Origin: Oscillospiraceae bacterium
GTDB taxonomy: Bacteria > Bacillota > Clostridia > Oscillospirales > Acutalibacteraceae
Reading direction: 5' to 3'
DNA: 36,718 nucleotides
Assembly: GCA_031267965.1 (NCBI GenBank)
Contig: JAIRYC010000031.1
Span: 1 to 36,718, forward strand
Shown here: one piece after another, positions 1 to 19,316 of the stretch
Numbering within the stretch: the first letter of the stretch is position 1
How the letters are laid out: the number at the start of each line of letters is the position of its first letter
The notes under the pieces: model-generated
Database searches by the model: none
Told to the model about the DNA's origin: nothing
What the model saw: only the letters and a program-made list of their open reading frames with translations
Made by a program: the position numbers and the translations under genes

Positions 1-198
1 AAAACGGAAATCATCGTCTCTGTCGTGCTTAAGCGACAGGGCGATTGCGTCTTCCGCCGCTGCTTGCAGGCGTGTGATGGTGTACTGAGCAGGGGATATG
101 CTCGTCTGCGATTCCTCGCTGCCACTTGCAATTACGGTCATGCTGCTGCTTGTGATATGCACCTCAGTACAAACTGTTTCAAGGGTGATACCGTCCAT
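1..198 (-). CDS. Start of a small phage tail-module protein (partial)
   Basis: The frame is open from an ATG at 198-196 to the left edge, giving 66 residues with no stop. The ATG shares a TAATG overlap with the stop of the preceding tail gene, which indicates translational coupling in the tail operon. The N-terminus (MDGITLETVC...) has no motif that I recognise. The segment is rich in Ser, Thr and Ala and ends in a charged stretch. From position I infer a minor structural or accessory tail protein. The rest lies outside the window. Confidence 0.6.
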   Translation of the reverse strand, partial: MDGITLETVCTEVHITSSSMTVIASGSEESQTSISPAQYTITRLQAAAEDAIALSLKHDRDDDFRF

Positions 199-1202
199 TA
201 GAGGAACGTCTGAATTTCAGCAGGGATGTACGCAGCCAACGCAGCGACTTCAAGCCACGCCGATTTCAATTCTGTGAATACAACGCCATCGGCATAGGCG
301 GGCACGAGCTGGTTTTCTCCCATATCGAATGCCAGCCCCTCGGCGTAGGCAGTGTTGTCGGTGTCAAGAATGTACTGGTAGTAAATCGCGGACTTTTGAT
401 AGTCGCAGTCGATGATGTTGTCATCATCAAAGACCATATTGCCGGTGTTGTCGCCGTCAAGAAAGAACCCGGCATCGTAATAGGGGGCGCTTTCCTCTGT
501 GAATGTGCCTGCATCTTGACCGGGAACTGTTGGCACATCGAATGTGCCCGCGTCCCGCACGTAGGACAGAGAGTGCTGTTGCCCGCTTGTGCGGCGCACC
601 ACAATGTTCCCCTCCCTGTCTGCCTCCACCCAGCCACAGATGAGCTGCGCGTACATACTCAGCAGTTGCCTGAGGGACGCATCATCAACCATAAGGTCTT
701 TCGCGGTGGTCGCATCGATGAGGTAGGTTTCCGGCAAAACCAGCGTCAGGTCTTTCAGTGCGCACTGCTCCTGCAACAGCGCGCCCACCTGAGCAAATGT
801 GCTACCGGCGGGGATAGCCAGCTCGGCAAAGGTATCCAGAAAGCGGATATTGTCCTCCAGCTTGCAGTCGTAAAACCCCATGCGCGAAGACTTCACCGCC
901 GACACGATAGTGAATACCCCCATAGGGATTTCAAACGGGCTGCCGTCCGGCATAGCCACGCCGATGTAGAGCGTTTGCTTTTGCCCCTCTAGGTCGGTTG
1001 CATCGTTGGCAATCGCGGTAAATTCGCACGTAGTGATTTGGCAGGAGCCGGGGAGCCAGATGGTCTTGTCGCCGATGGCGCGGTCGAGTTTGAAGTTCGC
1101 GCCCACGAGGCTCTCGTTGTCCAGCAGGTCGCCAAAGCGGAATTGGTAGGTGACGGTTTCGGAGGATAACGCGGTCTGTACTTCTGGCGTGATTGCGTAC
1201 AT
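198..1202 (-). CDS. Phage tail / baseplate-hub-like protein
   Basis: This 334-residue protein is the third gene of the minus-strand tail module, 17 bases after the DUF6711-like gene and with a G-rich Shine-Dalgarno sequence before its ATG. The N-terminal half (about 1-110: YQFRFGD, QKQTLYIG, GVFTIVSA) resembles the first domain of tail-tip and baseplate-hub proteins that lie downstream of tape measure genes in Clostridia prophages. The middle (about 110-205) looks like a hub domain (FAELAIPAGSTFAQVGALL, then SLRQLLSMYAQLICGWVEADREGNIVVRR). It would act in the virion at the tail tip, not in the cell. The family is assigned by gene order and general resemblance, so the exact role (distal tail or hub) is inferred. 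Confidence 0.7.
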   Translation of the reverse strand: MYAITPEVQTALSSETVTYQFRFGDLLDNESLVGANFKLDRAIGDKTIWLPGSCQITTCEFTAIANDATDLEGQKQTLYIGVAMPDGSPFEIPMGVFTIVSAVKSSRMGFYDCKLEDNIRFLDTFAELAIPAGSTFAQVGALLQEQCALKDLTLVLPETYLIDATTAKDLMVDDASLRQLLSMYAQLICGWVEADREGNIVVRRTSGQQHSLSYVRDAGTFDVPTVPGQDAGTFTEESAPYYDAGFFLDGDNTGNMVFDDDNIIDCDYQKSAIYYQYILDTDNTAYAEGLAFDMGENQLVPAYADGVVFTELKSAWLEVAALAAYIPAEIQTFL

Positions 1203-1219
1203 AATCTGTGCCCCTTTTT

Positions 1220-1717
1220 TCAGTATTCAATCAGGTTGACGTCCATTGAGTGCCGAACGCCCGCACTATCCTTTCCGCACCAGTAGTTCGCATTAACCTC
1301 CGGCGTGGTACAGTAGCACTTGATTTTGATGTATCCATTGTGGATTGCAGACGGAAAGCACACCCATACAAAGTCGTTCGCGCCGTCGTTTTTCGCGCCC
1401 GGCTTGAGCAAGGAACACAGCCCGACTGTTTCTTTCCAAGTCAGGCTATTCCAGCCGATTGCGAGGGTCATCACGCCCTGGCGGAGGATAGAGCGGTGCA
1501 TCACCCCGCTCTTTGTGCGCACTGAATTCTCGCCGTCTAGCGTGTCTGCTTTGTACTTGAGATTTGCAACGGTCGGTAGCTTCACATTTGTACCGCTCTC
1601 TGTGGCAGCGGCATAGACGAGGTTTGGCGTCTGGATGTCCTGCGCCCCGATGGAGGAGAGATACGCCGTAAAATCCTGCGTGTTTATCGGGGCTGTTTGC
1701 CCCCAGGCCTTTGACAT
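1220..1717 (-). CDS. DUF6711-like phage tail protein
   Basis: This 165-residue protein (MSKAWGQTAPINT...) resembles the DUF6711 family of Clostridia prophages, which sits directly after the tape measure gene. Its ATG overlaps the tape measure stop as TAATG, so the two are coupled. Visible features are the Asn/Trp-rich segment TLAIGWNSLTWKETVGLC and a C-terminal stretch with several Cys residues (KIKCYCTTPEVNANYWCG). It has no signal peptide or membrane segment. It is probably a minor structural component of the tail; the biochemical role of this family is not established. Confidence 0.75.
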   Translation of the reverse strand: MSKAWGQTAPINTQDFTAYLSSIGAQDIQTPNLVYAAATESGTNVKLPTVANLKYKADTLDGENSVRTKSGVMHRSILRQGVMTLAIGWNSLTWKETVGLCSLLKPGAKNDGANDFVWVCFPSAIHNGYIKIKCYCTTPEVNANYWCGKDSAGVRHSMDVNLIEY

Positions 1718-4095
1718 TATGCGTACCCCCTTATTCTCTGCATGTGTCCAGCATACTGTGCCACAGCGCGGGCGATTTCCCGCCCATCCAGCATCACCGG
1801 GACGTTGATTGTTGTTGCCTGCCCGTCGCCCAAGAGGTTTGCAAGCTCTTCCCGCAGAATCTCACGAATCAGCCCCTCAGGGGCTTCCAGATTGCGCCCG
1901 TGTTTCTGGTCGCCGAGGATTGCCGCGAACTCCGCGCGGGGTGGTATAACCGCACCAGTGGCAAGGCGGGGCAGGCTCACGTTTGGCAGCGTACCGATGT
2001 TGAAGCCAAACTTCTTGCCGCCGATGAGCGGTATCCAATCTGGCACGTCAAAGCTGATTTTGTTGATACCCGCGATGATGTTGTTGATGCCGCGCAGGAA
2101 GAAGTTGATGAAGTTTTCCACCATGGAGAGCAGCCCGTTGATGGGGGCTTTCGCGCCGTTTTTGACGCTCGTCCACATGGCGGCGGCTTTGTCCTTGATG
2201 GCGTTCCACGCGTTCACAAAGGCATCCTTTATCTTCTTGGCGATGCCGTCTATGAACTCACGGAACTTTGTGTTGTTGTCGTAGAGGTACTTGAAAACAC
2301 CCGCAAACGGGTTTAGGATGAACGTGAGGATGTTTTTCCAATTGGTTTTGACCCAGTCAATGGCTTTTTGGAACACCTCTGTGATTTTTGTCTTGATATT
2401 TTGGAAAACAGCGACGACTTTGTCGATGACGTTCACCTTGAACCAGTCCGCGACTTTCTTCCAGATTTCCACGATTTTCGCCCACACAGCGGCGGCGACT
2501 TCCTTGACTTTATCCCAGTTTTTGACCAGCAAGATAATGCCCGCCACAAGGGCGGCAACCGCGAGGATAATCAAGGTGATAGGTGACGTCAACACCGCCA
2601 TAGCTGCGTTGAACAGCCATGTTGCCGCTGCTGCGGCGGCTGTCGCTACAGTCTGTGCCACAGTTGCTACTGTGTCGGCTATTTTTGCCGCAGTTTGCGC
2701 TATCCACTGTATGATTGAGCCAATCAGTGCGGCAGTCTGTAGGATAAAGCCACGAATGCCGTTTGCCACCTCGTTTGCTACGGAAGCCACGGTATCCGCA
2801 ATCTTTGCCGCAGTTTGCGCTATCCATTTCGCAATTGAGGTCACAATAAAGGCAATTTGCGTGGCAAGGCCTTTAACGTAGGCAACAGCGTTTTGGAATG
2901 TGTTTGTAATCGTGGCGGCAGTATCGGAGGTTTTTGTTGTGATGAGCACGAGGAGCATTCCTACTGCCTGTTGCACGACAGCCCCCAGTCCCCCCATCGT
3001 GTGCAACCACGAGAGTAGCTTGGTGACTTCCCACGCTGCCACAAGAGTGCCGATGACAATCACAAACGCAGATACGGTGGTCTGGTTGTCTTTTATCCAG
3101 TTGCCGATTTTGCTCAACGCATCCGCGAGCGTGTTTAGGATGGCTACTATCAGACCGCCTGTCCATGCGCGGATTGGTTGTAGAAAATTATCCCACAGCC
3201 ACGCTGCATAGGGCTTCAAAATCTCAAGTACCCCATCAAGAAAATCCAGTGCGCCTGCGAGCAGGTTCAACGATGCCGGGGCGGCTTCTTCAACGTACCA
3301 TTTCGCGATGGGCGCAAGTACGTTGTCGTTCAGCCACTTCAAGCCGTCTTTGACTTTGCTGATAAGCGGCTCAGCGGCGGTTTTCACTTTGTCAAAGGCA
3401 TTTACAAGATTGGTAAAGTCAATGTTCTTCCACGGTGTCGCGAGGTCAGACATGAAACCTTTTATTTTGGATATCGTCCCCTGAATCTTTGTTGCCAGTT
3501 CGTCTAGTTTGGCTTTCATGCCGCCATCCAGTACGTCCATCTCCTCCAGTGCCGCGCTGGTATCGATGGTGGGAGTGATCGTCGCGGGTGCGGCGTTTGG
3601 GGGCGTCGTCGCTGCGCTGGCGTCAGAAGTATTTATTACATTCAGCTGGTCGAACCCTGCGAGTTGCCCGGCTTTCTTTTGGGCTCTCGCGGCTTTATCC
3701 GTGGCTTTGGCAAGGGCGGTTTCGCCTGCCGCCGCCGCGTTGGCAGATGCGGCCACAGCGGCATTGCCTTTCGCCGCCTTATCTGCCGACGAGGTCTTGC
3801 CAAAGAGCAGCTGCATCACGTAGCTTGCCGCCTGCGCTACCCGCGTGAGGGCGGCAATAATCGCACTCAGCGAGGGGAGTACCGCCTTGGCGATGGGAAT
3901 GAGCGCATTGCCCACCGACACTTTCAGCTGGTTCAGATTGAACGATAGCTGCGACAGTTGCCCGCTGAAAGTCCCCGCCACCTTTGCCGCGTCGCCGGTC
4001 TGGAAGCGCGTCTCTACCATGATACCGTTGACCTCGGCAAGGATTTTCTGCTCTTGCGTGAGTTTGTTGGCAGTTGTGCCGATGGAGCGGGCATA
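1717..4095 (-). pseudogene. Phage tail tape measure protein, N-terminus missing
   Basis: The reading frame runs from the join near 4095 to a stop at 1719-1717, and the first in-frame ATG is at 4020. Just inside the join the sequence has the conserved core typical of TP901/siphophage tape measure proteins (LTQEQKILAEVNGIMVETRF, GTFSGQLSQLSFNLNQLK). Long Ala/Thr/Val helices, several hydrophobic helices (for example LTSPITLIILAVAALVAGIILL) and a Gly/Pro-rich tail follow. About 790 residues remain; upstream the frame runs into a TGA at 4107-4105 within unrelated WYL-gene DNA. The start and N-terminal coiled coil are therefore gone. In an intact phage this protein sets tail length and passes through the host membrane. 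Here it is a remnant unless the join is an assembly error. Confidence 0.85.
2684..2826. repeat. Two 23-base direct repeats 120 bases apart inside the tape measure gene
   Basis: Bases 2684-2706 and 2804-2826 are identical (they begin tttgccgcagtttgc). Together with similar flanking sequence they encode two copies of the helical segment WIAQTAAKIADTVA. Internal repeats are common in tape measure proteins, where repeat number scales with tail length. Confidence 0.8.
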
Positions 4096-4805
4096 AGCTC
4101 CAACTCAATTTTGTGATGCATATGAATGGCACTGAGCAACTCCAACATAATCCCACTGTCCAGCGCAAAGAGCATATACCTATGCTTATATGATAGATAA
4201 TCCGGCAAATCGTCGTATTTGTCCAAAATGTAACTGCCAACAACGCCCAGTGGGTTATCCTCAGTAAAGAAGGCAATGGCCTCGCGCCAGACGCGTAAAT
4301 CAAGTGACTTGATGGGTAACTTGTACACAAGCTGTTTGCCCTGCTTTTGGGCTGTAATCAACCCAAGTTCCGAATATTCCTTGAGCTTTTTGCGCAGAGT
4401 GGATTCGTCAATCGGGTCGGCATTTTGAAAGTGCGGGAGATATTCGCGGTCGATAATATCCAAAATATCAGTGATACTTTTTGGTTCATCGCAGATAAGA
4501 ATATCCAGCAGCAAAAAGTGCAGGCTGATGTCATTTTTTGTGAAGCACTTAGCCTTCCATGCTTTATACAGCGGGTTGTGTGTAATGTGGCGGCTGTCCA
4601 CCGAGAGAAACACCGCCTTGCCGGTTGCATCCTGCCGAAAGGACATGAAATTCCCCAGCCAGCTTTCAACCCGGCGTTTTTCGTTATCATAGCTCCGGGC
4701 GCTTTTTGCGTCGAACTCATCACGGCTGCGAAAACCGTAGACAAGAAATTGCCGCATGTAGTTGCGTATACCCGCGAAGTTTTTAATCAGCTCGCTGTAT
4801 GCCAC
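4096..4805 (-). pseudogene. WYL-domain transcriptional regulator, C-terminus lost at phage join
   Basis: The gene starts at a GTG (4805-4803) behind an AAGGCGG-like ribosome binding site, 30 bases after the phosphatase-like gene. About 237 residues are native. There is an N-terminal helical region (MAYSELIKNFAGIRNYMRQF), a winged-helix region about 75-155 (DILDIIDREY...LKEYSELGLITAQKQGK) and the beginning of a WYL ligand-sensing domain (LLSAIHMHHKIELEL). The frame then enters tape measure DNA and runs 26 unrelated residues to a stop at 4014. Members of this family are usually about 300-350 residues, so most of the WYL domain is missing. WYL regulators often control phage-defence operons; here the gene is the last of the operon. 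DNA binding may persist, but ligand sensing should be lost. Confidence 0.8.
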
Positions 4806-4835
4806 GGTTTCACCGCCTTTCGTGAGTTTGTAGTT

Positions 4836-5231
4836 TTATTCAGAATAATTGCGGTTAATGTGTTCGTTTACTTTGCTTCTAATTATATCCACAAGCTGTT
4901 TGTCCATGAATTCGTAATTGTCTGGAATGTACAGGCAGATTACCTTTTTGCCACTAAGCTCCGTTTGGTACCGCTGGCGTATTCGCTGGGTATGCTTTTT
5001 CTCCATGGTGAAAATAATATCTGCCCACCCAATCATGCCGCCTGTCACTTTAACACGCGCATTGTTTTCCGTCCCGGCAGATCGCACATCCAGTTCGGAC
5101 TCGTGAGCCAATGTGCGCTCGGCGGTTAAACTACGCCGCTTGTTTTGGCTGCACAAGAACAGCAATTTAAGCTTGTGATTAGCTTCGTTGGGCATTTGTT
5201 TCATCATATCCATAGCACTTCTTTTAACCAT
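4836..5231 (-). CDS. Low-molecular-weight protein tyrosine phosphatase-like protein
   Basis: This 131-residue protein has the phosphatase P-loop as LFLCSQNKRRS, matching C-x5-R-S, near residue 27. It also has the downstream motif SAGTE/AR (ELDVRSAGTENNAR) and the IPDNYEFMD segment of a small LMW-PTP-like subfamily. It would be a cytoplasmic phosphatase acting on phosphotyrosine or a phosphorylated small substrate; the substrate is unknown. The start at 5231 is chosen for the AAGGGA sequence just upstream; ATG codons at 5213 and 5207 are alternatives. It lies 42 bases after the YobI-like gene and 30 bases before the WYL gene, so it is very likely part of the defence-like operon. That is an unusual partner and suggests a signalling or modification step. 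Confidence 0.8.
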   Translation of the reverse strand: MVKRSAMDMMKQMPNEANHKLKLLFLCSQNKRRSLTAERTLAHESELDVRSAGTENNARVKVTGGMIGWADIIFTMEKKHTQRIRQRYQTELSGKKVICLYIPDNYEFMDKQLVDIIRSKVNEHINRNYSE

Positions 5232-5273
5232 CAGATCCCTTGTCTCTCTTCGTCTTGAATGGATAGACTCTAA

Positions 5274-8200
5274 TTATGTCGCAGTCACGCTCATCTTCTT
5301 TATAAGATGAAACCCATCTGTTAGCTTGAAGCTGTATAAGAATTCTCTCATGTATACATCAAACAACGCTATTGGGAACTCCCCTGTGAAGTCACCAAGA
5401 ACCTTGGCAATATTATCTACAACGATATTTTCAATGCACTTCTGGACATCAGTTGCCTCTTGTGGATATTGTAGAACAAGTCCAATAAGTTCGCTCATGT
5501 CAAAATTGTTTTTCAATATTTGCGTTTTCACTGCAACTGAATAAGATTTGGGCAGAATTTTTATGGGTTCTTCTGTGAATTCTAGCAAGCGGATTTTCAA
5601 GTCATCAGATATGTTCAAATCCAAAACATTCAGCGCTTCGTCAACATCAAAAAGCCCTTCGGTCATTATCTCAACATACTCTTCAACGTGCTTTTCAATG
5701 AATACGAGAAGCGATTTGGAGTAGTTTTTTCTTATAAAAACAAGTGCATCCTCATGCATGTGGATCGTATTGATATCAACGAGAATGCTAAATTTGTCAG
5801 CACAAATTCCGCTTATTGAGAAGCCTTCCTCATAGCAAAAATCAAGACCAGCTAAAATGTCTTTGTATACTTGATTGCTCAAACTGTTGCAAATAATAGC
5901 TGCATCAAATAGACTTTCGGCAATTTTATCATCGAAAATTACCGCTGTGGTAGAAAAGTCAATGGTTCCTGCGTGACGATTGATAAAGTCGATAAGCGTA
6001 TCGTCGAAAACCTTTTTGGAATCCAGAAAATATTGAACAATATTCTCAACATTACAGGGCACTTTATCTTCTTCAAGTAATTGCGCCCACAAGGATTTAT
6101 CTTCAACGGTCGATATGTGTTGTATGGTGCTATTAAGTGCAGAAATATATGAGGCTTTGTGATCGTTTGTGATTTCGCCGGAATTTAGAACACTTATGGC
6201 AACAGCTTCGTCATCTGAAATTTCTCCTGCCGCCATGTCGAGGTAGATGCCCATGTAAATATCAATGTTCTTCCAAATGTACTTTGCAAGTGGACTGTCT
6301 GGTTGCGCCATAATAAGAGTGAGGTTGTTGTGATAAAACTCTGTGTTCCCAAGATCATATGTTACTCGAAGCATTAAGGTAATATTTGAAGAGTTAATTT
6401 CATAGAGACACTTTTTATAAACCCCATCAAAAAGCTCGCTATCAGACTTTTCATAGTTCAATGTTTTGAATTTTACATCAAGAAAACAAAACCGATCAAG
6501 AAGTCTATCTCTGTTTGGTTCATCGCTTCTCTCTCCTTTATAATGCTGGCCGAACTCAAGAAACTCAGGATTATCCTGAATATAAGCAGTTATGCACTCG
6601 TCAATATTTGCTGCTTTTAATTCAGCATTTGATGTGAAATATAGTGTCAACAATACAAAGTTGTCGATTGCAACAGCTTGATTTTCACGGGGCAGAACTT
6701 CATTCAATATACGGATACCAGTATTCTCTTTTTGCGATATTTTGCCGTTACAATTTGCCGAAATATCTGAAATAAACTCCGGCCAAACTTGATTGACTTT
6801 GTTTATAAAAGCGTTGTCTTTAATCCCCCATAGGATTGCGGATAAAATATAATGGTAATTCTTTTCGTCGACAATCAAAGCAAAGAATAAATCTAAATAC
6901 GCCCCATCGTTTTCGCTTTTCAGCAGGTAAGACATTAAGGTGAAGTTTAGAGTTTGAGTGTCTTTCATCATATCTTTACTCAGATATGTTAAGACCAACT
7001 GGGGATTGTCCAGAGGATAATTAAATGGTTTAGGTTTTCTATCGTGAATACCTCGGAGGTATTTCTTATCTTGCTCTGTAATGCTATTCGGATAGAAATA
7101 TGTCATATAGTCATGATATGATTCGTCAATCATGCCAGACCTCAGCAGATAAATGAGTAGATCAAAGTAGTACATATTTTCAGTGCTAAAATATTTTTGG
7201 GCTTCTTGCTCATTAAATACAGACCTTGTTGATCCGGATTCGATAATTGCCGAAATCGTAAGGGATTGCAGCTCCTTTATTTTTTCTTTGAGGATTTTGA
7301 TCTCGGATTCAAGTTTATAAACTTTCCCGTCTTTCTTTGCTGTAATCAAATCAAGTCGTTTGTCGAGTTCTTCCTTAAATTTTGAGTAGTAATATCTGTG
7401 CTGAGCAAAGTTTTCTCGATTTACATAATTACCCCACTGCAATATATCTTTTGAAGCGAAATATTGATGTGCTTCTTCAACCGACTGCATGTGTTCGGCA
7501 TTGATCGTTGATAGCACCTTTTTCTTCTTCTCAATTTCTACCTCATAATCTGCTTTTTTATCATCAACAAAATCAGGCTTGCGGTCAAACAATGAAGCAA
7601 CATAGCCGCGCCCAAGTTGAAGTTCGCTAAAATCTCTGGGGAATAAGTTCTTGTATGTGATTATCGCAAGCATCTTATTCCAGTCTTGATCTGTAGTCCC
7701 GATACGAGTGATATATACTTTGAATTCGTTATAAATATTGAGAAGCACACGCATATCATCAATGTACAGAGAAAGGCTTTTCAAAAAATGTTCATCGAAC
7801 CTACCGAATATCTTACCCTTTTTGAGAACCTCAATAAATTTGTCGTATGAATTAGATCCATCTATGATGGGAACGACGGGCAGTATGTAATCGAAAAACT
7901 TTGTACGATCTTTTGTGGAGGTGAAAATATCATCGCGAAGCAAATAAAAGAAGCGAAGCGGTTTGTATTCACGAGTGCGCCTGATAAACAGTTTTGAAAC
8001 TCTATCATATTGCTTCTGACGCTGCTCATTGATTAACGTGTTTACCTCACGGAGCCTTTCGAATATACTAACGGCGTTGAAGCGATCCATATCCTCAAAT
8101 ACAATCACATCAACACCTGATCTTTCAAACAAATATAGAACCTCGTTCAAATATTTATCGAAATATGACTCTTCAGACTGTTCAAAAATTTCTATCTCGT

Positions 8201-8828
8201 TGCCTTGCACTGATAGCTTTTTGAATATGGTCTTATATTTAAAAATATGATATAGACGGAATATCATATATATAATAGCGGCAGCAAGCAGAATTAACCC
8301 TGCAATACGCGAAAAATCGCTGATGGAAAAGTAAAGAATGTTTTTTATCCAAGGAGAGCTTAATCCATTGACAAAGCCGCTCCACTTATCGAACAAAAAC
8401 GAGTATACGCCCAACATAACAGCTGCAACAAAAACCTCAAACAGTGACTTAGGCTTTGAAACTCGCTGTTTCACCCTGAAATTTGTCTGTGGTATGTTTT
8501 CGGGGGTAATCTGATGAATAAGTTGATTGAGGATTTTTCCTTCTAATACGGATTCCTTGATCGGTTTTTCTTGACCTGTCATTGCCGTTACGACTTCTTG
8601 TGAGCCTTCAAAATGAGCAAGGGAAATATGGAGGAATTGTGTTGATGGGTGAGATTTCTTGTAGGAGGCAATAACACTACTTTTACCAGCGCTATAAGCG
8701 CCGGAAACAGCAATATTTCTTAAATCCTGCTCGGAGAAGATAAAATCAAGCGCATCAGAATAAATGCCAAGTTCGGCATCATCAACTGGCGTTAGTTTTT
8801 GAAAATTATGGATGTTTTTGGCGCTCAT
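5274..8828 (-). CDS. YobI-family membrane P-loop NTPase (1184 aa)
   Basis: The N-terminal block (FQKLTPVDDAELGIYSDALD, then AVSGAYSAGKSSV) is characteristic of the YobI P-loop NTPase family. Walker A is GAYSAGKS at about residues 43-50, and a Walker B-like VIVFEDMDRFN lies at about 241-251. Two hydrophobic segments at about 130-147 and 175-195 interrupt the NTPase domain, an arrangement shared with KAP-type NTPases, so the protein is probably anchored in the inner membrane with a large cytoplasmic C-terminal part. A charged coiled-coil-like stretch follows at about 475-580. The remaining roughly 600 residues are helical and unassigned. The start at 8828 is preferred over an upstream ATG at 8993 because AGGAGGA precedes it (8839-8833) and the earlier start would lie deep inside the methyltransferase gene. 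It overlaps that gene by 23 bases. The function of YobI proteins is not established; the context suggests phage defence. Confidence 0.9.
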   Translation of the reverse strand: MSAKNIHNFQKLTPVDDAELGIYSDALDFIFSEQDLRNIAVSGAYSAGKSSVIASYKKSHPSTQFLHISLAHFEGSQEVVTAMTGQEKPIKESVLEGKILNQLIHQITPENIPQTNFRVKQRVSKPKSLFEVFVAAVMLGVYSFLFDKWSGFVNGLSSPWIKNILYFSISDFSRIAGLILLAAAIIYMIFRLYHIFKYKTIFKKLSVQGNEIEIFEQSEESYFDKYLNEVLYLFERSGVDVIVFEDMDRFNAVSIFERLREVNTLINEQRQKQYDRVSKLFIRRTREYKPLRFFYLLRDDIFTSTKDRTKFFDYILPVVPIIDGSNSYDKFIEVLKKGKIFGRFDEHFLKSLSLYIDDMRVLLNIYNEFKVYITRIGTTDQDWNKMLAIITYKNLFPRDFSELQLGRGYVASLFDRKPDFVDDKKADYEVEIEKKKKVLSTINAEHMQSVEEAHQYFASKDILQWGNYVNRENFAQHRYYYSKFKEELDKRLDLITAKKDGKVYKLESEIKILKEKIKELQSLTISAIIESGSTRSVFNEQEAQKYFSTENMYYFDLLIYLLRSGMIDESYHDYMTYFYPNSITEQDKKYLRGIHDRKPKPFNYPLDNPQLVLTYLSKDMMKDTQTLNFTLMSYLLKSENDGAYLDLFFALIVDEKNYHYILSAILWGIKDNAFINKVNQVWPEFISDISANCNGKISQKENTGIRILNEVLPRENQAVAIDNFVLLTLYFTSNAELKAANIDECITAYIQDNPEFLEFGQHYKGERSDEPNRDRLLDRFCFLDVKFKTLNYEKSDSELFDGVYKKCLYEINSSNITLMLRVTYDLGNTEFYHNNLTLIMAQPDSPLAKYIWKNIDIYMGIYLDMAAGEISDDEAVAISVLNSGEITNDHKASYISALNSTIQHISTVEDKSLWAQLLEEDKVPCNVENIVQYFLDSKKVFDDTLIDFINRHAGTIDFSTTAVIFDDKIAESLFDAAIICNSLSNQVYKDILAGLDFCYEEGFSISGICADKFSILVDINTIHMHEDALVFIRKNYSKSLLVFIEKHVEEYVEIMTEGLFDVDEALNVLDLNISDDLKIRLLEFTEEPIKILPKSYSVAVKTQILKNNFDMSELIGLVLQYPQEATDVQKCIENIVVDNIAKVLGDFTGEFPIALFDVYMREFLYSFKLTDGFHLIKKMSVTAT

Positions 8829-10467
8829 CTTGTCCTCCTGTGATTGATCCTCGTCCCAATCGTCTTCGTTGCAGCTTCTTCCATATTGCTCGGCATTGCT
8901 GGCATATCTCTGGGTCAATCCCCAGAATATCCACCAACAATTCCTTGTCAACAATATCAAGCGCCAACTCAATGTCATCATTCGCTCTGACAATCGAGTC
9001 CACTCGTTGAAGTATGTTAGCTCTCAATTCCGTATCAATTACATCAATCTTTGGCAGCAGAATATTCCCCATTTCTCCCGGGAGTATTTCCAATACGCCG
9101 CCGCCATAACTGCGACCACAGATTTCGGTGAATGCAAATGAAATGCTGTTGTAATAAGATAACAGAACATCTAGCGGATCAACGTTGTCATTGAATTTCA
9201 TGCGATGCATGGTATCTGTTGAAACAGCATCACATTCGTTCAGAACAAACTTTGGGTATAAGTTATTGCGCCGTAGGAAGAATGCATCTGGCACCCACAC
9301 GGACGGAACAATATACCATCTGTCTCGAATTGTACACTTGTAGCCCTTATGCTGTTCAGAAGATTCGCCCTCTGTAATGTAGTCTCTTTGTGGCTCGCTA
9401 TACTTTGAAACCGGTGTATTGGGGAAACTGATAAGCATCGCTTTCTTACCAGCTTTCACGTTCTTCTGCCAATCGGATTCTGTGAAATATATTCCATGGG
9501 CATGAGAACTGCGACCAATCAGCGGAAGACAGATTGGCTCCAAATCGTATTGCTCTGCTGTGTTTTGTGTTATTGAAAAGTAATCGTTATTTCCTGTGGT
9601 GATGCCGACATTGATAACACCATAATCTCTAAACGGCGCAAAACGGGTATCTGAGCGCAGTTGCTGAATCAACTCAATCTCGCTTGCGGATGTAAAATAC
9701 TTCGTCCACTTTTCCTTGACATGCTGCATTTTTCGGAAGCCATTTTGGTTCAAATCAAGAGTTTTGAACCCATCAAGCGTATCTAACTCAATGATGCGGA
9801 TTCCTTTTTCTTCGCCGCCTTTTTCTCCGATGAACACTAAAACCTCTTGTTCGATTTCGCTGAATACCAATTTTTCAAAGGTTATCAGTGTAATACGAGA
9901 AAGCTGCGTGGATAAAAACAGCCTCAAATCTTCTGCATATGCAACCTGTAATATTTCGGCGGGAACGACAAATGCCAACTTGCCATCTTCGGAAAGCATC
10001 TGCACACTGGCCACTAAAAAGCAAACCCATGCATTAATCAGTTTGTTTGCTTTCATTCCATGGGAGGTTAGGATTTGTGACAGTATTTCTCGTTGTTGCT
10101 CTGTCAGGTATTGATATCGAATATAGGGAGGATTGCCCAAGATTAGGTCATATTGCTGCGCATCTCTATTGCGATCATAAAACTTGAAAAAATCTTCTGT
10201 AATGACGTCCACATTGGTATCTTCGTATGAACGTTTTACCTTTGCAGCCTCCTGCGGTTCTATTTCAACAGCAGTTACAGAATCTATTTGTTCCAGCATT
10301 CCGCATGCAGAAAGACTGTCGATAAAAACACCGTCACCGCAACTTGGCTCAAGCACATGATGAATCGGTTCGTCCGAAAAAAGGCTCACCATAGCATCAG
10401 CCAATTGAACTGGCGTGTAGTAAGCGCCACGCAATTTTTGCAGGGTGCTGTTTTGTTTCAAACGCAA
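8806..10467 (-). CDS. N6-adenine DNA methyltransferase (Eco57I/PaeR7I-like)
   Basis: This 553-residue class I methyltransferase has its SAM-binding motif as VLEPSCGDGVF (about 38-48) and catalytic motif IV as LGNPPY (about 110-115), which indicates adenine-N6 methylation. The N-terminal RGAYYTPVQLADAM is typical of PaeR7I/Eco57I-type enzymes. The C-terminal half (about 300-530) should carry target recognition. The start is a TTG at 10467-10465 behind an AGGAGGG-like site and overlaps the previous gene by 10 bases; its end overlaps the YobI-like gene by 23 bases. Enzymes of this type are usually paired with a restriction enzyme, but here the next gene encodes an NTPase. It may mark self DNA for the operon's effector. 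Confidence 0.9.
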   Translation of the reverse strand: MRLKQNSTLQKLRGAYYTPVQLADAMVSLFSDEPIHHVLEPSCGDGVFIDSLSACGMLEQIDSVTAVEIEPQEAAKVKRSYEDTNVDVITEDFFKFYDRNRDAQQYDLILGNPPYIRYQYLTEQQREILSQILTSHGMKANKLINAWVCFLVASVQMLSEDGKLAFVVPAEILQVAYAEDLRLFLSTQLSRITLITFEKLVFSEIEQEVLVFIGEKGGEEKGIRIIELDTLDGFKTLDLNQNGFRKMQHVKEKWTKYFTSASEIELIQQLRSDTRFAPFRDYGVINVGITTGNNDYFSITQNTAEQYDLEPICLPLIGRSSHAHGIYFTESDWQKNVKAGKKAMLISFPNTPVSKYSEPQRDYITEGESSEQHKGYKCTIRDRWYIVPSVWVPDAFFLRRNNLYPKFVLNECDAVSTDTMHRMKFNDNVDPLDVLLSYYNSISFAFTEICGRSYGGGVLEILPGEMGNILLPKIDVIDTELRANILQRVDSIVRANDDIELALDIVDKELLVDILGIDPEICQQCRAIWKKLQRRRLGRGSITGGQDERQKHP

Positions 10468-13400
10468 GGAGGAAACCCTCCTTCCTGAAACTCTAATCTA
10501 TATACTTTGGAAATCAAAATCTCTATTTCACTGATTAGAGTTTGTTTGCGACGCGCTAACACACTCTCGGCACTCTTGTTGGGATTTGCTGCGAGTGATT
10601 CATTGATTTCATATATCTCGCGAGTTTTAGAAATAATGTCATCGTGCAGTTTTTTCTGTTCAGCCTTTGTAAAATCAAGCTCCACAAAAGGCAAGGTAGA
10701 CAAGATGAATGTGCCACGGGCGACAAACCCGCCTTCAAAATCACTGCCGGAAAGCCGGATGATTTTCTCGGTATATGGATGTGTAAGCCACGCTTGAATA
10801 TATTCAATGGCGTATTGACTATCTGCTTTGGGGCTAATGGCACAATATCCTGCCGTTCCACCGGATGCTATCAACATGTCAGCATTGTCAAAGGCATACA
10901 TCGGTTCTTTGCTCAGTACGCCAACAATCAGCTTTGGTGTGTTGATAAATGCAGTCAAAGCCTGTGTCCGCCCATATTGATACCATGTTTCAGCTGTTGC
11001 GCCTGGAACGTCGCGAACGCCAGATGGTGATACGATTTTTGGGACAAGGCGCGAGTAGTAATGCTGTAGATATTTAAGCGTAGCGGGATAATCCGATTCC
11101 ATCGTTTCGAGCGGAATCAGTTTGCCTTTTTCGTCATATGGGAAGATGATTGACTTGTCGGTTGTCAAATGCGCATAAGAATTCAGCCCTTTTTCAACTT
11201 TGCGCGTGGGCTTAAAATAGGGCTTTAGTAGAGCCTTCTCAATTTGAAAATGCAAACCATTCCGAATAATTGTAATGGTTTTTATGTCTTCGAATACGAC
11301 TTCATCCGCTGAAAACCAATAGATCGGCGTGGGGCGCTCAGCGCTGGTCTGAATACCGTTGAAAACATCCGCATGAAAAGTTAGAGGAACAGCACGTTCT
11401 TCCAACTGCTGCATAATTCGAAGAAGGTGAATATCCGTAGTCAGTTTCCATGTGAATTCATTCAACATTGCTGACTTTATGACAATGGAATCAATCTCTT
11501 CTCCCGCCCAAAGCTTAGGCGCGGAAGTCACGTTCGAATATGTAAATTCGTTCTGCGGCAGCTTTTGTAGAAGCAGGATTGAACTATATATGGTCTTATC
11601 ATCGAACAACTGTGCATCTCCAAAATCGTCCAACTGCACCAACAATTTTTGATCGGAGATTATCTTGCGCAAGTTCTTTCCGGCGGCAATCTTGAAGAAT
11701 TTGTTTGGAACGATATAGGAAATAACACCCTTATCCTTAACGCGCTGTATCGCTCGCTCTAAAAAAATAAAGTATTTATCGAACTGTTTATACGCCGACT
11801 TATATTTGGACTTATACACTTCAAATTCAATATTCGGCACAAGTGCATGAAGCTCTTCGGTGCTCACATAGGGCGGATTACCGATAATAGCATCGAATTG
11901 GACGTCTGGCGCGATTTCTGACCAATCAAAGGGCGTAATTTCCAGCAAATCATCAGCAGACACAGTTACGCTGTTCAGTTCATCCGAGCTAATCAAGGCA
12001 TTGCCGTGGAAGATGTTTTGGGATAGTTCAGGCAAAATAGGAGCAGAATCTGCAACAGATGGAGCGGTTTCATTTTCAATTAATTTGATGAGCAAAGAGA
12101 ATTTTGCTACTTCAACAGCGTGAATGTCAATATCAATTCCGTACACACAGGAACAAAGTAGTAGCTTCTTCTCCTCAAGAGGGAGTTTGTATAACCCATT
12201 CCCGATTTCCAGAAGATGAGCCGGGGCATTTATTGTGTACCATTCAATGCAATGATTCTGGAGATAATCAAAAGCCGCCTCCAAAAACACGCCAGAGCCG
12301 CAAGCGATGTCTGCAATACGGATGCCCAGCAATTCTTGCGGGGATTTACCCGCGCAAAGAATTGAAATAGACTTCTCGGTCATGTACTTCACGATTTCCG
12401 TTGGTGTTGTCACGATGGAACGGTTAGTGCAATCTTTCTTTTTTGCAAGACCGATATTGCCACTCGGCAGTTCTACCAGTTGTTCGGTCAGGAACATCTC
12501 GTAAATTTTACCAAGTAGATTAGATTCGATAATGCTGAAAAGATATGGACTTTGCGGATAATACAGCCCTTCAATGATATCCGCTACAACTGCGCTGCTC
12601 AGATCAAAAACAATAGATTTACCTGAAAACAGCCCCGAATTATACCGTTTATCGGTCGCTCGAAACAACTCCTCCAAGCGGAAGTTAAGCTGTTCAGGAT
12701 CAGCGATTGTTTCCTTCAACTTGTGATATAGAGGTAGATTTTTATCCTCGCAAATGCGCAGGAAAACAATTTGATTGATAAACTCCTGCACAACGTCATT
12801 TAACACCTCTAATGAATGGTACTGCGAGTGTTTGCCGTAGAGTTCATTGCTGAGAGATACACGCCACTCATTGATTTGTTGCAAAAAGAGTTCATCTACC
12901 TGTTGCTTGCGGCTTGATGATCCTGAAAACTGTGCATCAAAATAACAATCAAATGCGCCGGAATAAACGGTATCGCGAGAAATCAAGCTGCGGATTTCTT
13001 CAAACTTCTCCGCATATTCTGTGTAATGATAATACCTAAAACGTGCAAAGGCACAGCCATCATCTTCTTTTGGAACAATGGTTGTGTCATATATTATCAA
13101 ATATTCAAAATTGGTGAGAACAGTAACTTTGTGCTTGGCATTCCACCCATACTTTCGTGCTTGCAAAGCCGGATCGGAAATTTTGAAGATATCTACAGCG
13201 GGCTTTTTTGCCTCAACAAAGAATTTTGCAACTCCGCGCAGAGTGATTGAGTAATCTGGTCGGTCTGTTTTTGTAGAATAATTCTCAGCAATGACCTCGC
13301 GATATTGCGGTGGCAGTCCTTTGGCGTTGGCCACATCCCATCCCAACAATTGAAGCAGCGGGTCAATGTACTCAATCCGGCAAGAATGTTCATTATATGC

Positions 13401-13481
13401 GTTTTTGCTGTTTTTGTAATATGACAAATTTGCCGCAAACCTTTCAGTCAGGGCTTTCATTTGTGTCAAATCAACCATCAT
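10458..13481 (-). CDS. Type IIG restriction enzyme / adenine methyltransferase fusion
   Basis: This roughly 1007-residue protein carries nuclease and methyltransferase in one chain. The N-terminal nuclease has a PD-(D/E)xK signature, with DRPDYS at about 73-78 and FFVEAKKP at about 87-94. The methyltransferase follows with IADIACGSGVF (about 388) and IIGNPPYVS (about 532). The C-terminal region (about 680-940) fits a TaqI-like target recognition domain. It should methylate adenine at a specific site and cut unmodified DNA nearby. I choose the ATG at 13481, the first of two adjacent ATGs after a GCGGGG sequence; a frame extension to 13523 lies inside the HTH gene. It overlaps the HTH gene by 11 bases and the next methyltransferase by 10. 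Confidence 0.9.
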   Translation of the reverse strand: MMVDLTQMKALTERFAANLSYYKNSKNAYNEHSCRIEYIDPLLQLLGWDVANAKGLPPQYREVIAENYSTKTDRPDYSITLRGVAKFFVEAKKPAVDIFKISDPALQARKYGWNAKHKVTVLTNFEYLIIYDTTIVPKEDDGCAFARFRYYHYTEYAEKFEEIRSLISRDTVYSGAFDCYFDAQFSGSSSRKQQVDELFLQQINEWRVSLSNELYGKHSQYHSLEVLNDVVQEFINQIVFLRICEDKNLPLYHKLKETIADPEQLNFRLEELFRATDKRYNSGLFSGKSIVFDLSSAVVADIIEGLYYPQSPYLFSIIESNLLGKIYEMFLTEQLVELPSGNIGLAKKKDCTNRSIVTTPTEIVKYMTEKSISILCAGKSPQELLGIRIADIACGSGVFLEAAFDYLQNHCIEWYTINAPAHLLEIGNGLYKLPLEEKKLLLCSCVYGIDIDIHAVEVAKFSLLIKLIENETAPSVADSAPILPELSQNIFHGNALISSDELNSVTVSADDLLEITPFDWSEIAPDVQFDAIIGNPPYVSTEELHALVPNIEFEVYKSKYKSAYKQFDKYFIFLERAIQRVKDKGVISYIVPNKFFKIAAGKNLRKIISDQKLLVQLDDFGDAQLFDDKTIYSSILLLQKLPQNEFTYSNVTSAPKLWAGEEIDSIVIKSAMLNEFTWKLTTDIHLLRIMQQLEERAVPLTFHADVFNGIQTSAERPTPIYWFSADEVVFEDIKTITIIRNGLHFQIEKALLKPYFKPTRKVEKGLNSYAHLTTDKSIIFPYDEKGKLIPLETMESDYPATLKYLQHYYSRLVPKIVSPSGVRDVPGATAETWYQYGRTQALTAFINTPKLIVGVLSKEPMYAFDNADMLIASGGTAGYCAISPKADSQYAIEYIQAWLTHPYTEKIIRLSGSDFEGGFVARGTFILSTLPFVELDFTKAEQKKLHDDIISKTREIYEINESLAANPNKSAESVLARRKQTLISEIEILISKVYRLEFQEGGFPPCV

Positions 13482-13656
13482 TTTGCCCCGCTTTCTTTTT
13501 ATCGTTTGTCGGCTTTTTTGCATTTTGTGGAATTACCCAGATGCGACTCATACGAGCAGCGCCTTCGATGCGCCCTTCCTTGCAGAGGATTTGCACTTGG
13601 CGAACAGTAACGCCCCATTTATCGGCAGCCTCTTGCGCTGTAATGTACCCGTTCAT
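13471..13656 (-). CDS. Small helix-turn-helix DNA-binding protein
   Basis: This 61-residue protein (MNGYITAQEAADKWGVTVRQVQILCKEGRIEGA...) is an excisionase/MerR-like HTH protein (HTH_17 type). The helix-turn-helix is at about residues 6-30, a wing with RIWVIPQ follows, and the tail is Lys-rich. An ATG at 13665 gives three more residues, but its Shine-Dalgarno sequence would be too close; GGGAG sits at better spacing for 13656. It is the first gene of the defence-like operon and overlaps the restriction-methyltransferase start. Such proteins precede type IIG restriction genes in many Firmicutes. It is the natural candidate for binding the palindrome in the operon promoter, which is inference. 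Confidence 0.8.
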   Translation of the reverse strand: MNGYITAQEAADKWGVTVRQVQILCKEGRIEGAARMSRIWVIPQNAKKPTNDKKKAGQNDG

Positions 13657-13695
13657 TTTCCGCATCTCCCTTGTCGCTCTTCAAAGACTACATAT

Positions 13696-13724
13696 ATTAT
13701 ATTCGTTTGAACGAAATTTGTCAA
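13696..13724 (-). promoter_or_regulatory. Perfect sigma-A promoter with palindromic operator in the spacer
   Basis: On the minus strand, TTGACA (13724-13719) and TATAAT (13701-13696) are both perfect consensus and are separated by exactly 17 bases. Within the spacer, 13702-13715 forms the palindrome TTCGTT-2-AACGAA. Transcription would start near 13689, about 30 bases before the HTH gene. A repressor bound to this palindrome would block RNA polymerase, and the HTH protein encoded first in the operon is an obvious candidate. Confidence 0.85.
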
Positions 13725-13833
13725 TAGTTGCGCGGGGTAATTTGAAAATTTCTTCGTAGGAACGCAGGACAACTTTTTTCGCCCCATCAGCCGCATAAAC
13801 ATAACATGAATACCTATTTTGCGAGGTGCGGCC

Positions 13834-16059
13834 ATGGACAAATACTTAAACATCCCAGAATCTCTGCGCCAGCGCGGGCTTTTCTGTTGCTGGCGATACG
13901 AGGGGCGAGGTGGCAGAAAGACAAAAATCCCATACAACCCGGCAACTGGCCAGCGGGCGCAGACCAATAACCCCTGTAGCTTTGTAGACTTTGTAACTGC
14001 CAAGCAAATGGTGCAAAACTATGACGGCATCGGCTTCTTAATCACGGACGGTCTGTTTGTAATCGACTGTGATCACTGTAAAAGTGCAGATGGCTCACTA
14101 ACCCAAACCGCTGCGGATATCGTTGAACTTTTCAGCGGTGCATATGTTGAATGGTCGCCGTCAGGTGAGGGACTGCACATTATCGGATATGCGCTGGATT
14201 TTGCCTTTGATAAGCAGAAATATTGGATGAACAAACGCGTCATCAACGTTGAAGTGTATATCTCCGGTGCGACAAACAGATTCATGACTTTGACTGGAAA
14301 CGTATATCGTGCGGGTGAGCTACTCACCTGCACGGATAAACTGCAAGTTTTCTTGGATAATTATATGCAACGTAATAACTCGGCTTTGGCTGCTCCGACT
14401 TCTGTGCCTGTCGGCGACTCCTTCCTGACCGATGATGAAGTTATCACCAAAGCCACATATGCCCGCAACGGCGCTGTTTTTCAGAAGCTTTGGAGCGGCG
14501 ATTACAGCGGCTATGCCTCCCAAAGTGAAGCGGATTTGGCGCTGGCAGGTGTGCTGGTTTTTTGGTGCGGCAAGGATATTGCCCAGATGGATCGACTCTT
14601 CCGGGCAAGCGGCCTGTTCAGAGAAAAGTGGGATCGCGTGCAGACAGGTTCTACTTATGGGCGGATTACGCTGGAAAAAGCAGCCATCGGCTCAGGGCGC
14701 TTGTTTGCTGACTATTTATTTTCAGGCGATTGCCAGATATGTGCCGGAGCGCAAGCTGTGGTATTGTTTTGATGGCAGCCGCTGGGTGCCGGATTTGCAG
14801 GATTTGAAAGTGGCAGAGTTGGCGAAAAAACTCTCGGATGAGCTGATCTGTTATGTCACACGCATTGAAGACGAACGCCGCCGTGAAGTGTACTTGGGCT
14901 ACTGCAAAAAGTGGATGCGCCGTGCATTCCGTGATACCATCGTGAAGGAAGCCCAGAGCGTGTATCCGATTTCTATGGACGATTTTGACGCGGATATTTA
15001 TGCATTCAACTGCAAGAACGGTACGCTGCATCTGGACACCATGGAGTTCAGACCCCATAACAGCGCTGATATGATCACAAAGCTGTCGCCAGTAAATACG
15101 ACCCATCCATGCGCTGTGAGCGTTGGGAGAAGTTCATCTCTGAAATCATGCTGGAAGACAAAGAAACCGCCGCTTTTATGCAGACCGCTTTCGGCTACGC
15201 TCTGACAGGCGAAACAAGGTATGAGTGTCTGTTCGTTTTATACGGAAAATTAACCAGAAACGGTAAAGGTACTCTGTGTGAATCGGTTATGAGAGTGATG
15301 GGAGATTATGGACGGTCGGTCAAGGTAGAGACCATCGCGCAAAAGCACAATCAACTTGGCAATATGCCTAGTGAGGATTTCGCCCGGCTTGCAGGGGTGC
15401 GCTTCGCCAATATCTCCGAGCCGGATCAGCGGTTGGAGCTTAATGCCGCGCAAGTAAAATCCATGACGGGCAACGATAAGATTCTGGCACGATTTTTGTA
15501 TGAAAACAGCTTCGAGTTTTATCCTCGCTTCAAGATTTATATCAACACAAACTATCGCCCCAACATCTGCGACATGACACTCTTTACCAGCAATCGTGTG
15601 TATATTATTCCTTTCGAGCGGCACTTTGAGGGATCGGAACAAGACCTCACGCTAAAAGATGAATTCCAAAAGCCACTGAATCAGACCGGCATTCTCAACT
15701 GGCTTGTTGAAGGGTATCGTCTGCTAAAAGAACGCGGACTCAAACCTTTCGCCGCCTCCGTCTCGGCAACGCAGGAGTATCGGCATGACTCGGATAAAAT
15801 CAGCCAGTTCATTGAGGATGTGCTGACCCCTGACCCAAACGGCGAGGAGCGCACCCAGTCTGTGTATAATCATTACAAGGTTTGGTGCAAGCAGAATGGA
15901 CTACGTCATGAGGGCATCAACAACTTTAAGCAGGCGTTCTCGTCAATCGCCGTTGTTGAGCGCAAACGCCCTCGCGGCGGCGGCAACCTGACCACTCTGC
16001 TTTTCGGATACACCCTGCCCGACAGCGGTTATGGCTACCAGCAGACCCTCTGGGACTGA
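13834..16059 (+). pseudogene. P4/D5-type phage primase-helicase, two compensating frameshifts
   Basis: The gene is read in three pieces. The first (13834 to about 14718) carries the primase-polymerase-like N-terminal domain (CCWRYEGRGGRKTKIPYNPATG, VIDCDHC, EWSPSGEGLHI) and a zinc-free linker domain. The second (about 14720-15093) continues as YFQAIARYVPERKLWYCFDG to DMITKLSPV in the next frame. The third (about 15095-16059) returns to the first frame with YDPSMRCERWEKF, a Walker A-like GKLTRNGKGTL, SEPDQRLELNAAQVKSMTGND and ERKRPRGGGNLTTLLFGY. One extra T near 14716-14720 and one missing A near 15091-15094 would restore a single protein of about 740 residues. The ATG at 13834 follows GAGG; a TTG at 13819 is less likely. 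Homologues start phage or plasmid DNA replication. Confidence 0.85.
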
Positions 16060-16746: not shown

Positions 16747-16775
16747 TTGATTAGTGAGCCAAACAGAGGTATCAT
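16747..16775 (+). promoter_or_regulatory. Promoter for the 'virulence protein'-DUF4314 pair
   Basis: TTGATT (16747-16752) and TATCAT (16770-16775) are separated by 17 bases. The start of transcription would be near 16782, giving a leader of about 38 bases before the ATG at 16820. Confidence 0.6.
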
Positions 16776-16819
16776 GTAGTCACCCAAAGGGGAAAATATA
16801 CAATATGGAGGCTACAATA

Positions 16820-17782
16820 ATGGCACAGTACAAATTCAACCGCACAGGCGCAGAACGCAAGCAGCTAGTGGGAGCCATCAGCGAAATCCTCAACGCGCCG
16901 ACCAAGTATCTCGGAATGCCCACAGCGGCATACGAAGTCGGCGGCTACCACATCGACAAGGAAGGCACAGTGGAGGGCGAATTCAACCTGACACTTTTCG
17001 CCGTGCTGGAAGCAAAGGGCTTCGACTACGAAACCGACAAAACCTACCACCTGATTACCCCGCGAGGCACATTCCTCATACTGCAGCATTTTGCAACCGC
17101 TGAGGAAGCCGAGGCTGAGGGCTATGGAATCTACTTCAACCACGAAGGGCGCGACGTTTATATCAAGCAAAACCCGGACGGCGCAACCGAACACTCAAAG
17201 CTTTTCGCGGTAGTTGGCTCACCTTTCGCCCAAGAAGCTCCGGCGGCAGAAGCCCCAACGCAGGATGCGCCGCAAGATGAAACGCCAGAGATGGCAGCCG
17301 CAACCGCCGAGGAAACCGACCTTGTTAGCATTGAATTGCCCTTGGATGGCTTCGCGCCGGAAGCGCTCGACAACCTCGCCAAGATGGTTAAAGCGAAAGA
17401 ACCTCTGCTCAAAAAGTCGCTGGATATGGATGATTTGCCCATCCAAATTGAAGAAGAACGCATTTGCTTCCCTTGGTTCAGACTTCACGAGGATAAAGGC
17501 GAGATTGCCTCATACAGCCAATTCATCGCTTGCCTTTGCGAGACCGCCAAAGAGAAAAAGCGTGTAACTGCCAAGGCGCATGAGACTTTCGAGAACGAAA
17601 AATTCGCCCTGCGAGTTTGGCTCATAGGGCTTGGCATGGTCGGTAAAGAATACAGCGCGGCTCGAAAGCTTCTTGTTAACAATCGACTTCTGGGAAACAG
17701 TGCTTGGCGTTTTGGAGTCCCGGAAAAAGCCCCGGAAACCGCAATCGAAGCCGAGGAAACGGAGGTGCAGGGCGATGAATAA
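16820..17782 (+). CDS. Mobile-element 'virulence protein'-type protein of unknown function
   Basis: This 320-residue protein begins MAQYKFNRTGAERKQLVGAI, the conserved opening of a family found in conjugative and phage-like elements of Clostridia and often labelled 'virulence protein'. The N-terminal domain (about 1-140) contains LNAPTKYLGMPTAAYEVGGYHIDK. A linker rich in Ala, Pro and Glu (about 142-185) joins a C-terminal domain with LPLDGFAPEALDNLAKMVKAKEPLLKKSL and FALRVWLIGLGMVG. The start is set by GGAGG nine bases before the ATG. It overlaps the DUF4314 gene by 8 bases. Its biochemical role is unknown. Confidence 0.8.
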   Translation: MAQYKFNRTGAERKQLVGAISEILNAPTKYLGMPTAAYEVGGYHIDKEGTVEGEFNLTLFAVLEAKGFDYETDKTYHLITPRGTFLILQHFATAEEAEAEGYGIYFNHEGRDVYIKQNPDGATEHSKLFAVVGSPFAQEAPAAEAPTQDAPQDETPEMAAATAEETDLVSIELPLDGFAPEALDNLAKMVKAKEPLLKKSLDMDDLPIQIEEERICFPWFRLHEDKGEIASYSQFIACLCETAKEKKRVTAKAHETFENEKFALRVWLIGLGMVGKEYSAARKLLVNNRLLGNSAWRFGVPEKAPETAIEAEETEVQGDE

Positions 17783-18179
17783 CTTCCCCTCCAAAGCCGC
17801 CATCGAGGCGCGGAAAGCGCGGTATACTCCGGGCAGTCGCGTGGAACTCATCAGCATGGATGACCCGTATACCAACCTCAAGCTCGGAGACCTGGGATTT
17901 GTAACAGCGGTCGATGATATCGGCACGGTTTTCGTGAAATGGGATAACGGCTCAAGTCTTGGCGCAGCCTACGGTGACCAAATCCGTCTTGCGCCATATA
18001 TTTCTGACGAATTGCTGGCAGAAATTAAGGCGGTGCAAATTTCGGCTGAGACAAATATGTTCGATGTCAAAACGGTTTTCGAGATTGCCGTGCGCGAGGG
18101 CTACTACCTTCTGGTAGATTTCGTATTCACCGACACCAAACGCTACAGCACCTTCATTCTCACAGGCAACCGCGGATAA
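17775..18179 (+). CDS. DUF4314 domain protein
   Basis: This 134-residue protein has a DUF4314-type N-terminal domain of about 75 residues (FPSKAAIEARKARYTPGSRVELISMDDP, then DDIGTVFVKWDNGSSL), which looks like a small beta-barrel fold. The C-terminal part (about 80-134) is extra and ends VFTDTKRYSTFILTGNRG. The ATG lies inside the end of the preceding gene, with GGAGG ten bases upstream, so the two are translated together. Such proteins are common accessory genes of integrative and conjugative elements; no activity is known. Confidence 0.8.
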   Translation: MNNFPSKAAIEARKARYTPGSRVELISMDDPYTNLKLGDLGFVTAVDDIGTVFVKWDNGSSLGAAYGDQIRLAPYISDELLAEIKAVQISAETNMFDVKTVFEIAVREGYYLLVDFVFTDTKRYSTFILTGNRG

Positions 18180-18323: not shown

Positions 18324-18391
18324 ATGTAAGGAGTTTTGTGCGCTTTTGGATGGTGCTATATGATTTGATTCAACAGAGGGAGATGAGCCTA

Positions 18392-19316
18392 ATGTCATTC
18401 GATGTATTTTTGAATTTTGACGGAGATTGCCGCGCTGCACTGGATTTTTACGCCGATGTGTTTCTAACAGGAAAACCTGCTGGGCTGATGACATATGGAC
18501 AGAGTCCAAACGGTTGTTCCGTCGCTGACAAAGACCGTATTCTATATGCAAGTTTGCCGATATTCGGGCACAGCCTTATGTTTTCAGACTGCCCCTCAGG
18601 CGAACAGTATGTCAAAGGTAGCAATGTTGCTCTAACATTGGGCAGCGATAACACTGATGAAATTCACAGAATTTTTGTGGCGATGTCGGTCGGCGGCGAG
18701 ATATTCATGCCACTGGAAAAGACATTCTTCAGCGAGCTATATGGGATGGTGCGGGATAAGTTTGACATAACATGGCAGTTGAGCCTGACTGCATTTGAAG
18801 GAGCAACATCATCATTCAATGAACTCGCCAATGCACGCTATTCTGTGCGCAGCTTCAAGCTACATCCAATAGGAGATGAAAAGATAGCGGCAATTCTCGA
18901 AGCCGGGCGTATTGCGCCCACTGCTTGCAACTATCAACCTCAACGGATAAAAGTTATCACAGGTGGCGATTTGGAGAAGGTTGACGCATGCTCTCCCTGC
19001 CGTTTCGGCGCTCCGACTGTTCTGCTGGTTTGCTATGATAAAAATATCAGCGCCAAACGCAGCAGTTTTGATAATAAAGAATTAGGCGAAATTGACGTAA
19101 GCATTGTAACCACTCATCTGATGTTTGCCGCGCACGAGCAAGGACTTGGCTCTTGCTGGGTGGCTCATTTTTAATCCTGATAAGATTGCAGAACTTTTTG
19201 CTTTGCCTAACAATATAGTGCCTATTGCGCTGTTGCCTATTGGATATCCTGCTGATGATGCCAAGCCCGCAGCGATGCATACAACGAAAAATAAGCTAGG
19301 GGATATCTTGCTGTGA
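18392..19316 (+). pseudogene. VOC (PhnB-like) / nitroreductase fusion with one frameshift
   Basis: The first part (about residues 1-130: MSFDVFLNFDGDCRAALDFYADVF, RILYASLPIFGHSLMFSDC) is a glyoxalase/PhnB-type VOC domain. The second (from about 140: FNELANARYSVRSF, EAGRIAPTACNYQPQRIKVI, THLMFAAHEQGLGSCWVAHF) is an FMN-dependent nitroreductase domain. The frame stops at 19172-19174, yet the next frame continues as NPDKIAELFALPNNIVPIALLPIGYP to a stop at 19314-19316. Removing one T from the TTTTT run near 19168-19172 restores a roughly 307-residue protein. I start at 18392 because the family begins at this residue and GGGAG is well spaced; ATG 18383 is the alternative. The domain pairing is unusual and could serve reductive detoxification. 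Confidence 0.8.

Follow-up and report, generated by a model that had tools for sequence, protein, structure and literature searches.

Defective prophages are common in bacterial genomes, and the WYL-family regulators of defence loci are represented by BrxR and by CapW, the latter reportedly the WYL factor that is linked to CBASS. In one study, BrxR homologues were located together with defence systems in about half of cases (48%; PMC9122601), and a second paper (PMC9122588) describes a WYL factor associated with CBASS. The locus analysed here joins a WYL regulator gene to a phage tape measure gene in a window of 36,718 nucleotides, which is the whole of contig 30 of the draft bacterial genome G000 (1.95 Mb in 123 contigs).

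The full-length relatives of the window's WYL gene resemble BrxR and CapW in that the WYL region follows a part that weakly matches winged-helix repressors, and the copy in genome G097 adjoins a Wadjet type II operon. The likeness to BrxR is one of architecture and context; in contrast to BrxR and CapW, the relatives form a tandem WYL pair. Unlike either regulator, the window copy has about 18 WYL-domain residues, and it has no partner gene. On the phage side, a truncated tape measure gene, a broken tail gene and the lack of adjoining head genes are features of defective (cryptic) prophage remnants, against which nothing in the window is unusual. The prophage region of Faecalispora jeddahensis JCD (NZ_CBYL010000046.1) encodes a tape protein that is 42% identical over residues 2-755 and, as in the window, has a PHROG 1194 gene after the tape gene; unlike the window, it keeps the tape start and the terminase, portal and head genes. 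We conclude that the join is most likely a deletion scar in a bacterial chromosome, running from a defence island to a defective prophage and probably formed by illegitimate recombination.

A truncated WYL-family regulator gene

On the minus strand, the frame from 4805 to 4014 encodes 263 aa and is 65% identical to residues 1-239 of a 411-aa WYL protein in G097, with 47-56% identity to 11 other relatives. The 237 residues encoded at 4095-4805 are homologous to the front of the full-length relatives, through which the gene is assigned to its family. The PADLOC WYL model matches residues 219-379 of the full-length G097 protein (E 1.3e-10), and Pfam WYL matches its residues 220-283 (E 0.005), a match that falls short of Pfam's cut-off. 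The preliminary description had called this a WYL gene, a label that holds for the family but not for the domain, most of which is gone: the fragment ends inside the WYL domain after about 18 of its residues, and searches of it against Pfam, PADLOC and NCBIfam detected no WYL domain at E 0.001. The full-length G097 protein is also without a Pfam match at E 0.001. With E values up to 1, Pfam WYL matches 11 of the 12 members of an alignment (A2) of 11 relatives and the window sequence, the best at 6e-9. The A2 profile has weak winged-helix repressor matches (best E 0.023) at about positions 113-189, inside the retained part. Two pattern matches to the fragment were obtained in viral contigs, neither of them a relative.

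A second gene of about 300 aa directly follows the first WYL gene in all 12 full-length relatives (11 found with a query from G097, and G097 itself as the twelfth) and is missing from the window. In G097 this partner also matches the PADLOC WYL model (3e-9). The G097 pair (L044 2891-17931) lies between a Wadjet type II operon, with JetA2-D2 matches, and a DUF2828/DUF7788 gene, and an RtcB gene is found further on; a DUF2828-type gene is also near the WYL pair in G091, G054 and G012. The WYL relative of G042 (L049 6537-8807) is a single 756-aa frame with about 340 additional residues at its front, a part that matches no Pfam family at E 0.1.

A truncated tape measure gene in a phage remnant

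The second gene (1717-4098, minus strand) is a 793-aa open frame that matches the tape measure family PHROG 1535 (E 2.3e-96) and lies before the next tail genes in the same order as in the loci L056 and L058. Its longest open reading frame with a start codon begins at the ATG at 4020. The counterpart of residue 2 of the open frame (Y, 4095-4093) in the nearer tape frames is residue 182 or 184, as counted from the preceding stop in each. Thus, as the preliminary description had proposed, both genes are truncated: of about 411 residues, 237 are left in the WYL gene, and the tape gene is without about 180 N-terminal residues. Relatives of the tape protein were found in viral contigs (eight, best 42% identity) and in genome contigs (two, best also 42%); the 188 records obtained among annotated phages were all below 60% identity, and none covered 80% of the query. 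Across 148 genomes, including its own, the tape protein has matches in 13 and the WYL protein in 14 at E 1e-10, and no near-identical copy of either was found in the other genomes at this threshold.

The tape gene is followed on the minus strand by a phage gene (DUF6711, PHROG 1194; 1220-1717), an order shared with L056 and with the same-genus genome G002, and then by a tail gene (1-1202, minus strand) within which the contig ends. The tail gene appears broken, matching an 880-aa G002 gene (38% identical) in two frames, and residues 332-351 of the G002 protein have no counterpart in the 23 bases that the window has at that point (187-209). Because of this two-frame match, the phage part was probably a remnant in its own right, with a lesion separate from the join. 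In the G002 prophage the order is terminase, portal, major head protein, tape, DUF6711-type gene and next tail gene, and terminase, portal, minor head and major head genes lie upstream of the tape gene in both relatives checked (F. jeddahensis and G002). The window does not hold a functional prophage: the tape start is missing, the next tail gene is apparently frameshifted, and there is no portal match in its own genome.

Two homologies meet within a few bases

Codon comparison with relatives on both sides placed the join at 4093-4098. Read on the minus strand, homology to the full-length WYL regulators reaches base 4095, and tape measure homology begins at 4095-4093. On the WYL side, the nearest relative reads I-E-L-E-L-Y-P where the window reads I-E-L-E-L and then M-P, so that L237, ending at 4095, is the last firmly shared residue; the remaining WYL relatives have already diverged at this spot. 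On the tape side, W-(E, D or A)-(D or E)-Y-A in the nearer relatives corresponds to V-G-A-Y-A in the window. The overlap of a few bases is an estimate from relatives, the best of which are 65% identical for the WYL protein and about 42% for the tape protein over its length. Mutual crossing of the two frames had been placed at 4095-4098 in the preliminary description, and these comparisons agree with it.

Beyond the join, the WYL frame continues out of frame in tape DNA for 26 residues and a stop codon at 4016-4014 (4014-4094, minus strand), and the tape frame extends upstream for two further codons to a TGA at 4107-4105. A working fusion protein was rejected, because the frames differ and each meets a stop soon after the join. 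Comparison of the 60 bases at 4066-4125 with the rest of the window, on both strands, gave no exact repeats of at least 12 bases, and a 32-base exact pattern spanning the join had no matches in viral contigs.

Evidence for a deletion

The join brings together two unrelated genes of the same strand, both broken off at a single position at which they have little or no sequence in common, the overlap being estimated from relatives. Homology on both sides ends at this position, an arrangement that fits a deletion junction. A deletion would have lost the segment from within the first gene of the WYL pair to within the tape gene of a defective prophage, after which the ends would have been joined with little or no common sequence by illegitimate recombination. 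One event probably took the rest of the WYL pair, the phage head genes and the start of the tape gene, and it would have occurred in the cell and not in the assembly.

To look for the lost parts, we searched the draft genome G000 itself. The WYL back half, the WYL partner gene and the tape start each gave no matches at E 10. As positive controls, the WYL back half and the partner were each strongly matched in six of six control genomes. The tape start was strongly matched in three of four; in the fourth (G002) the match was only at E 0.34, on a contig other than that of its tape gene, so that the search would overlook a tape start that had diverged as far as the one in G002. A portal query, run without a control, had no matches in G000 at E 1. 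At the level of the draft assembly, with controls for the WYL parts and the tape start, the lost segments are thus absent from the genome, and since G000 is a draft this is absence from the assembly, not from the cell.

A same-strand deletion that also removed the head genes and the tape start had been suggested in the preliminary description and is supported in part. In its favour, both genes lie on the minus strand and are cut at one point, the lost parts are unmatched in the assembly, and the tape gene of related phages is preceded by terminase, portal and head genes; we infer one deletion, as opposed to several steps, and its removal of the head genes and tape start in one event. The comparison with related genomes that had been advised did not yield an intact pre-deletion locus among the relatives examined, the best of which are 65% (WYL) and about 42% (tape) identical. 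Nor did the genes that neighbour the WYL stump in the window (phosphatase-like, YobI-like, methyltransferase and type IIG) match anything in the stretches of the 12 WYL relatives at E 1e-6, and there is therefore no intact copy of the island in those stretches.

We also infer that neither product keeps its normal role, because the WYL protein no longer has a sensor domain or a partner, and the tape protein no longer has its start or the head genes. Damage of this kind to a genome is ordinary, and the case matters mainly for annotation: the WYL frame and the tape frame should not be counted as working genes, and the join should not be annotated as a fusion protein.

Alternative origins of the join

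One alternative explanation is that the join is an assembly chimera: the phage piece (1-4095) would belong to a different genome or locus, and the assembler or a chimeric read would have attached it to the defence island. The draft assembly consists of 123 contigs, the end of the contig lies about 4 kb from the join, within the phage part, and GC differs across the join (0.55 against 0.47 and 0.41), a difference that fits two origins and does not separate a deletion from a chimera. According to a review of metagenome assembly (PMC7299287), chimeric contigs form at points where graphs have k-mers in common, and sequencing errors can also link graphs. Against an artefact of this kind, the two homologies overlap here by only a few bases and show no common stretch as long as a k-mer, so that a chimera would require either a join with no visible shared k-mer or a chimeric read. 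A mis-join within the genome should, moreover, have put the lost halves elsewhere in the assembly, and no contig with them was found; their absence would also be expected if the phage piece came from another genome. Against such a foreign source, among the loci compared, two of the phage genes found matches solely in a same-genus genome (49% and 38% identity), and the assembly is rated 94.3% complete with 0% contamination. We consider a chimera unlikely.

A complex rearrangement, in which an insertion or several deletion or inversion steps placed a defence cassette in or beside a prophage and the join is one edge, would fit a second phage-like stretch on the opposite strand beyond the defence genes (13819-16059, with a primase broken over three frames) but is very unlikely. 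Insertion into the tape gene would leave the front of that gene on the far side, and the tape fronts of six relatives matched nothing in the window at E 1. A search of the whole assembly with one relative's tape front was also empty. Insertion into the tape gene was rejected on these grounds, the front of the gene having been found nowhere in the window or the assembly. We retain a deletion between the defence island and the defective prophage as the probable origin of the join, one that would account for all of these features; because of the second phage-like stretch past the defence genes, the region as a whole probably underwent several events.

A second truncated copy of the WYL pair

Another truncated copy was found in G012 (L015 948-1479), where residues 1-71 only of the first WYL gene are present (86% identity to G097). 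The partner matches from residue 215 to 301 at 58 bases after the end of the first-gene match, and is followed by the start of a DUF2828-type gene (residues 1-267, reaching the end of the locus), which is downstream of the pair in G097 as well. Because its break points differ from those in the window, G012 looks like a separate truncation of the same WYL pair. Of the first WYL gene, nothing but the front is left in either the window or G012, and the frames of the neighbouring genes examined are uninterrupted. Truncated copies number two in 14 genomes with the WYL protein (the window's own included), from which no trend can be claimed, and we regard it as very unlikely that loss of the tandem pair is recurrent and selected. 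If recurrent loss held in more genomes, it would suggest that defence islands tolerate or favour losing regulators. On that unlikely reading, the WYL stump, with its repressor-like part kept and its sensor domain gone, could be a regulator deaf to its signal; alternatively, its loss could keep the defence genes switched on at all times.

The defence island and the remainder of the window

The defence genes sit upstream of the WYL stump on the same (minus) strand. Nearest to the stump is a small protein that weakly matches low-molecular-weight phosphatases (4836-5231; Pfam LMWPc, 6.4e-06), followed by a YobI-like ATPase that resembles the defence protein Tmn (5274-8993; Pfam PF20693, 2.5e-114; PADLOC Tmn, 8.4e-72, best stretch residues 52-507), a type II DNA methyltransferase (8806-10467; PADLOC MTase_II, 6.8e-180) and a type IIG restriction enzyme-methyltransferase (10458-13523; PADLOC REase_MTase_IIG, 2.1e-263).

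In the stretch beyond these genes (13819-16059), the phage-type primase/helicase, on the strand opposite to the tail genes, extends over three overlapping frames with breaks near 14690 and 15105 and is probably a pseudogene. Further phage-type genes, with an amidoligase match and matches to DUF4314 and DUF5049, lie at 16754-18179. No tRNAs were found in the window, and positions 1-15000 had no match to plasmids. The right end of the window is syntenic with three same-genus genomes: G003 over 31.1-33.3 and 34.8-36.6 kb, G002 over 31.3-33.2 kb and G004 over 31.1-32.0 kb. In the frame at 18338-19174, matches to a glyoxalase-like family and to the nitroreductase family occur in one protein.
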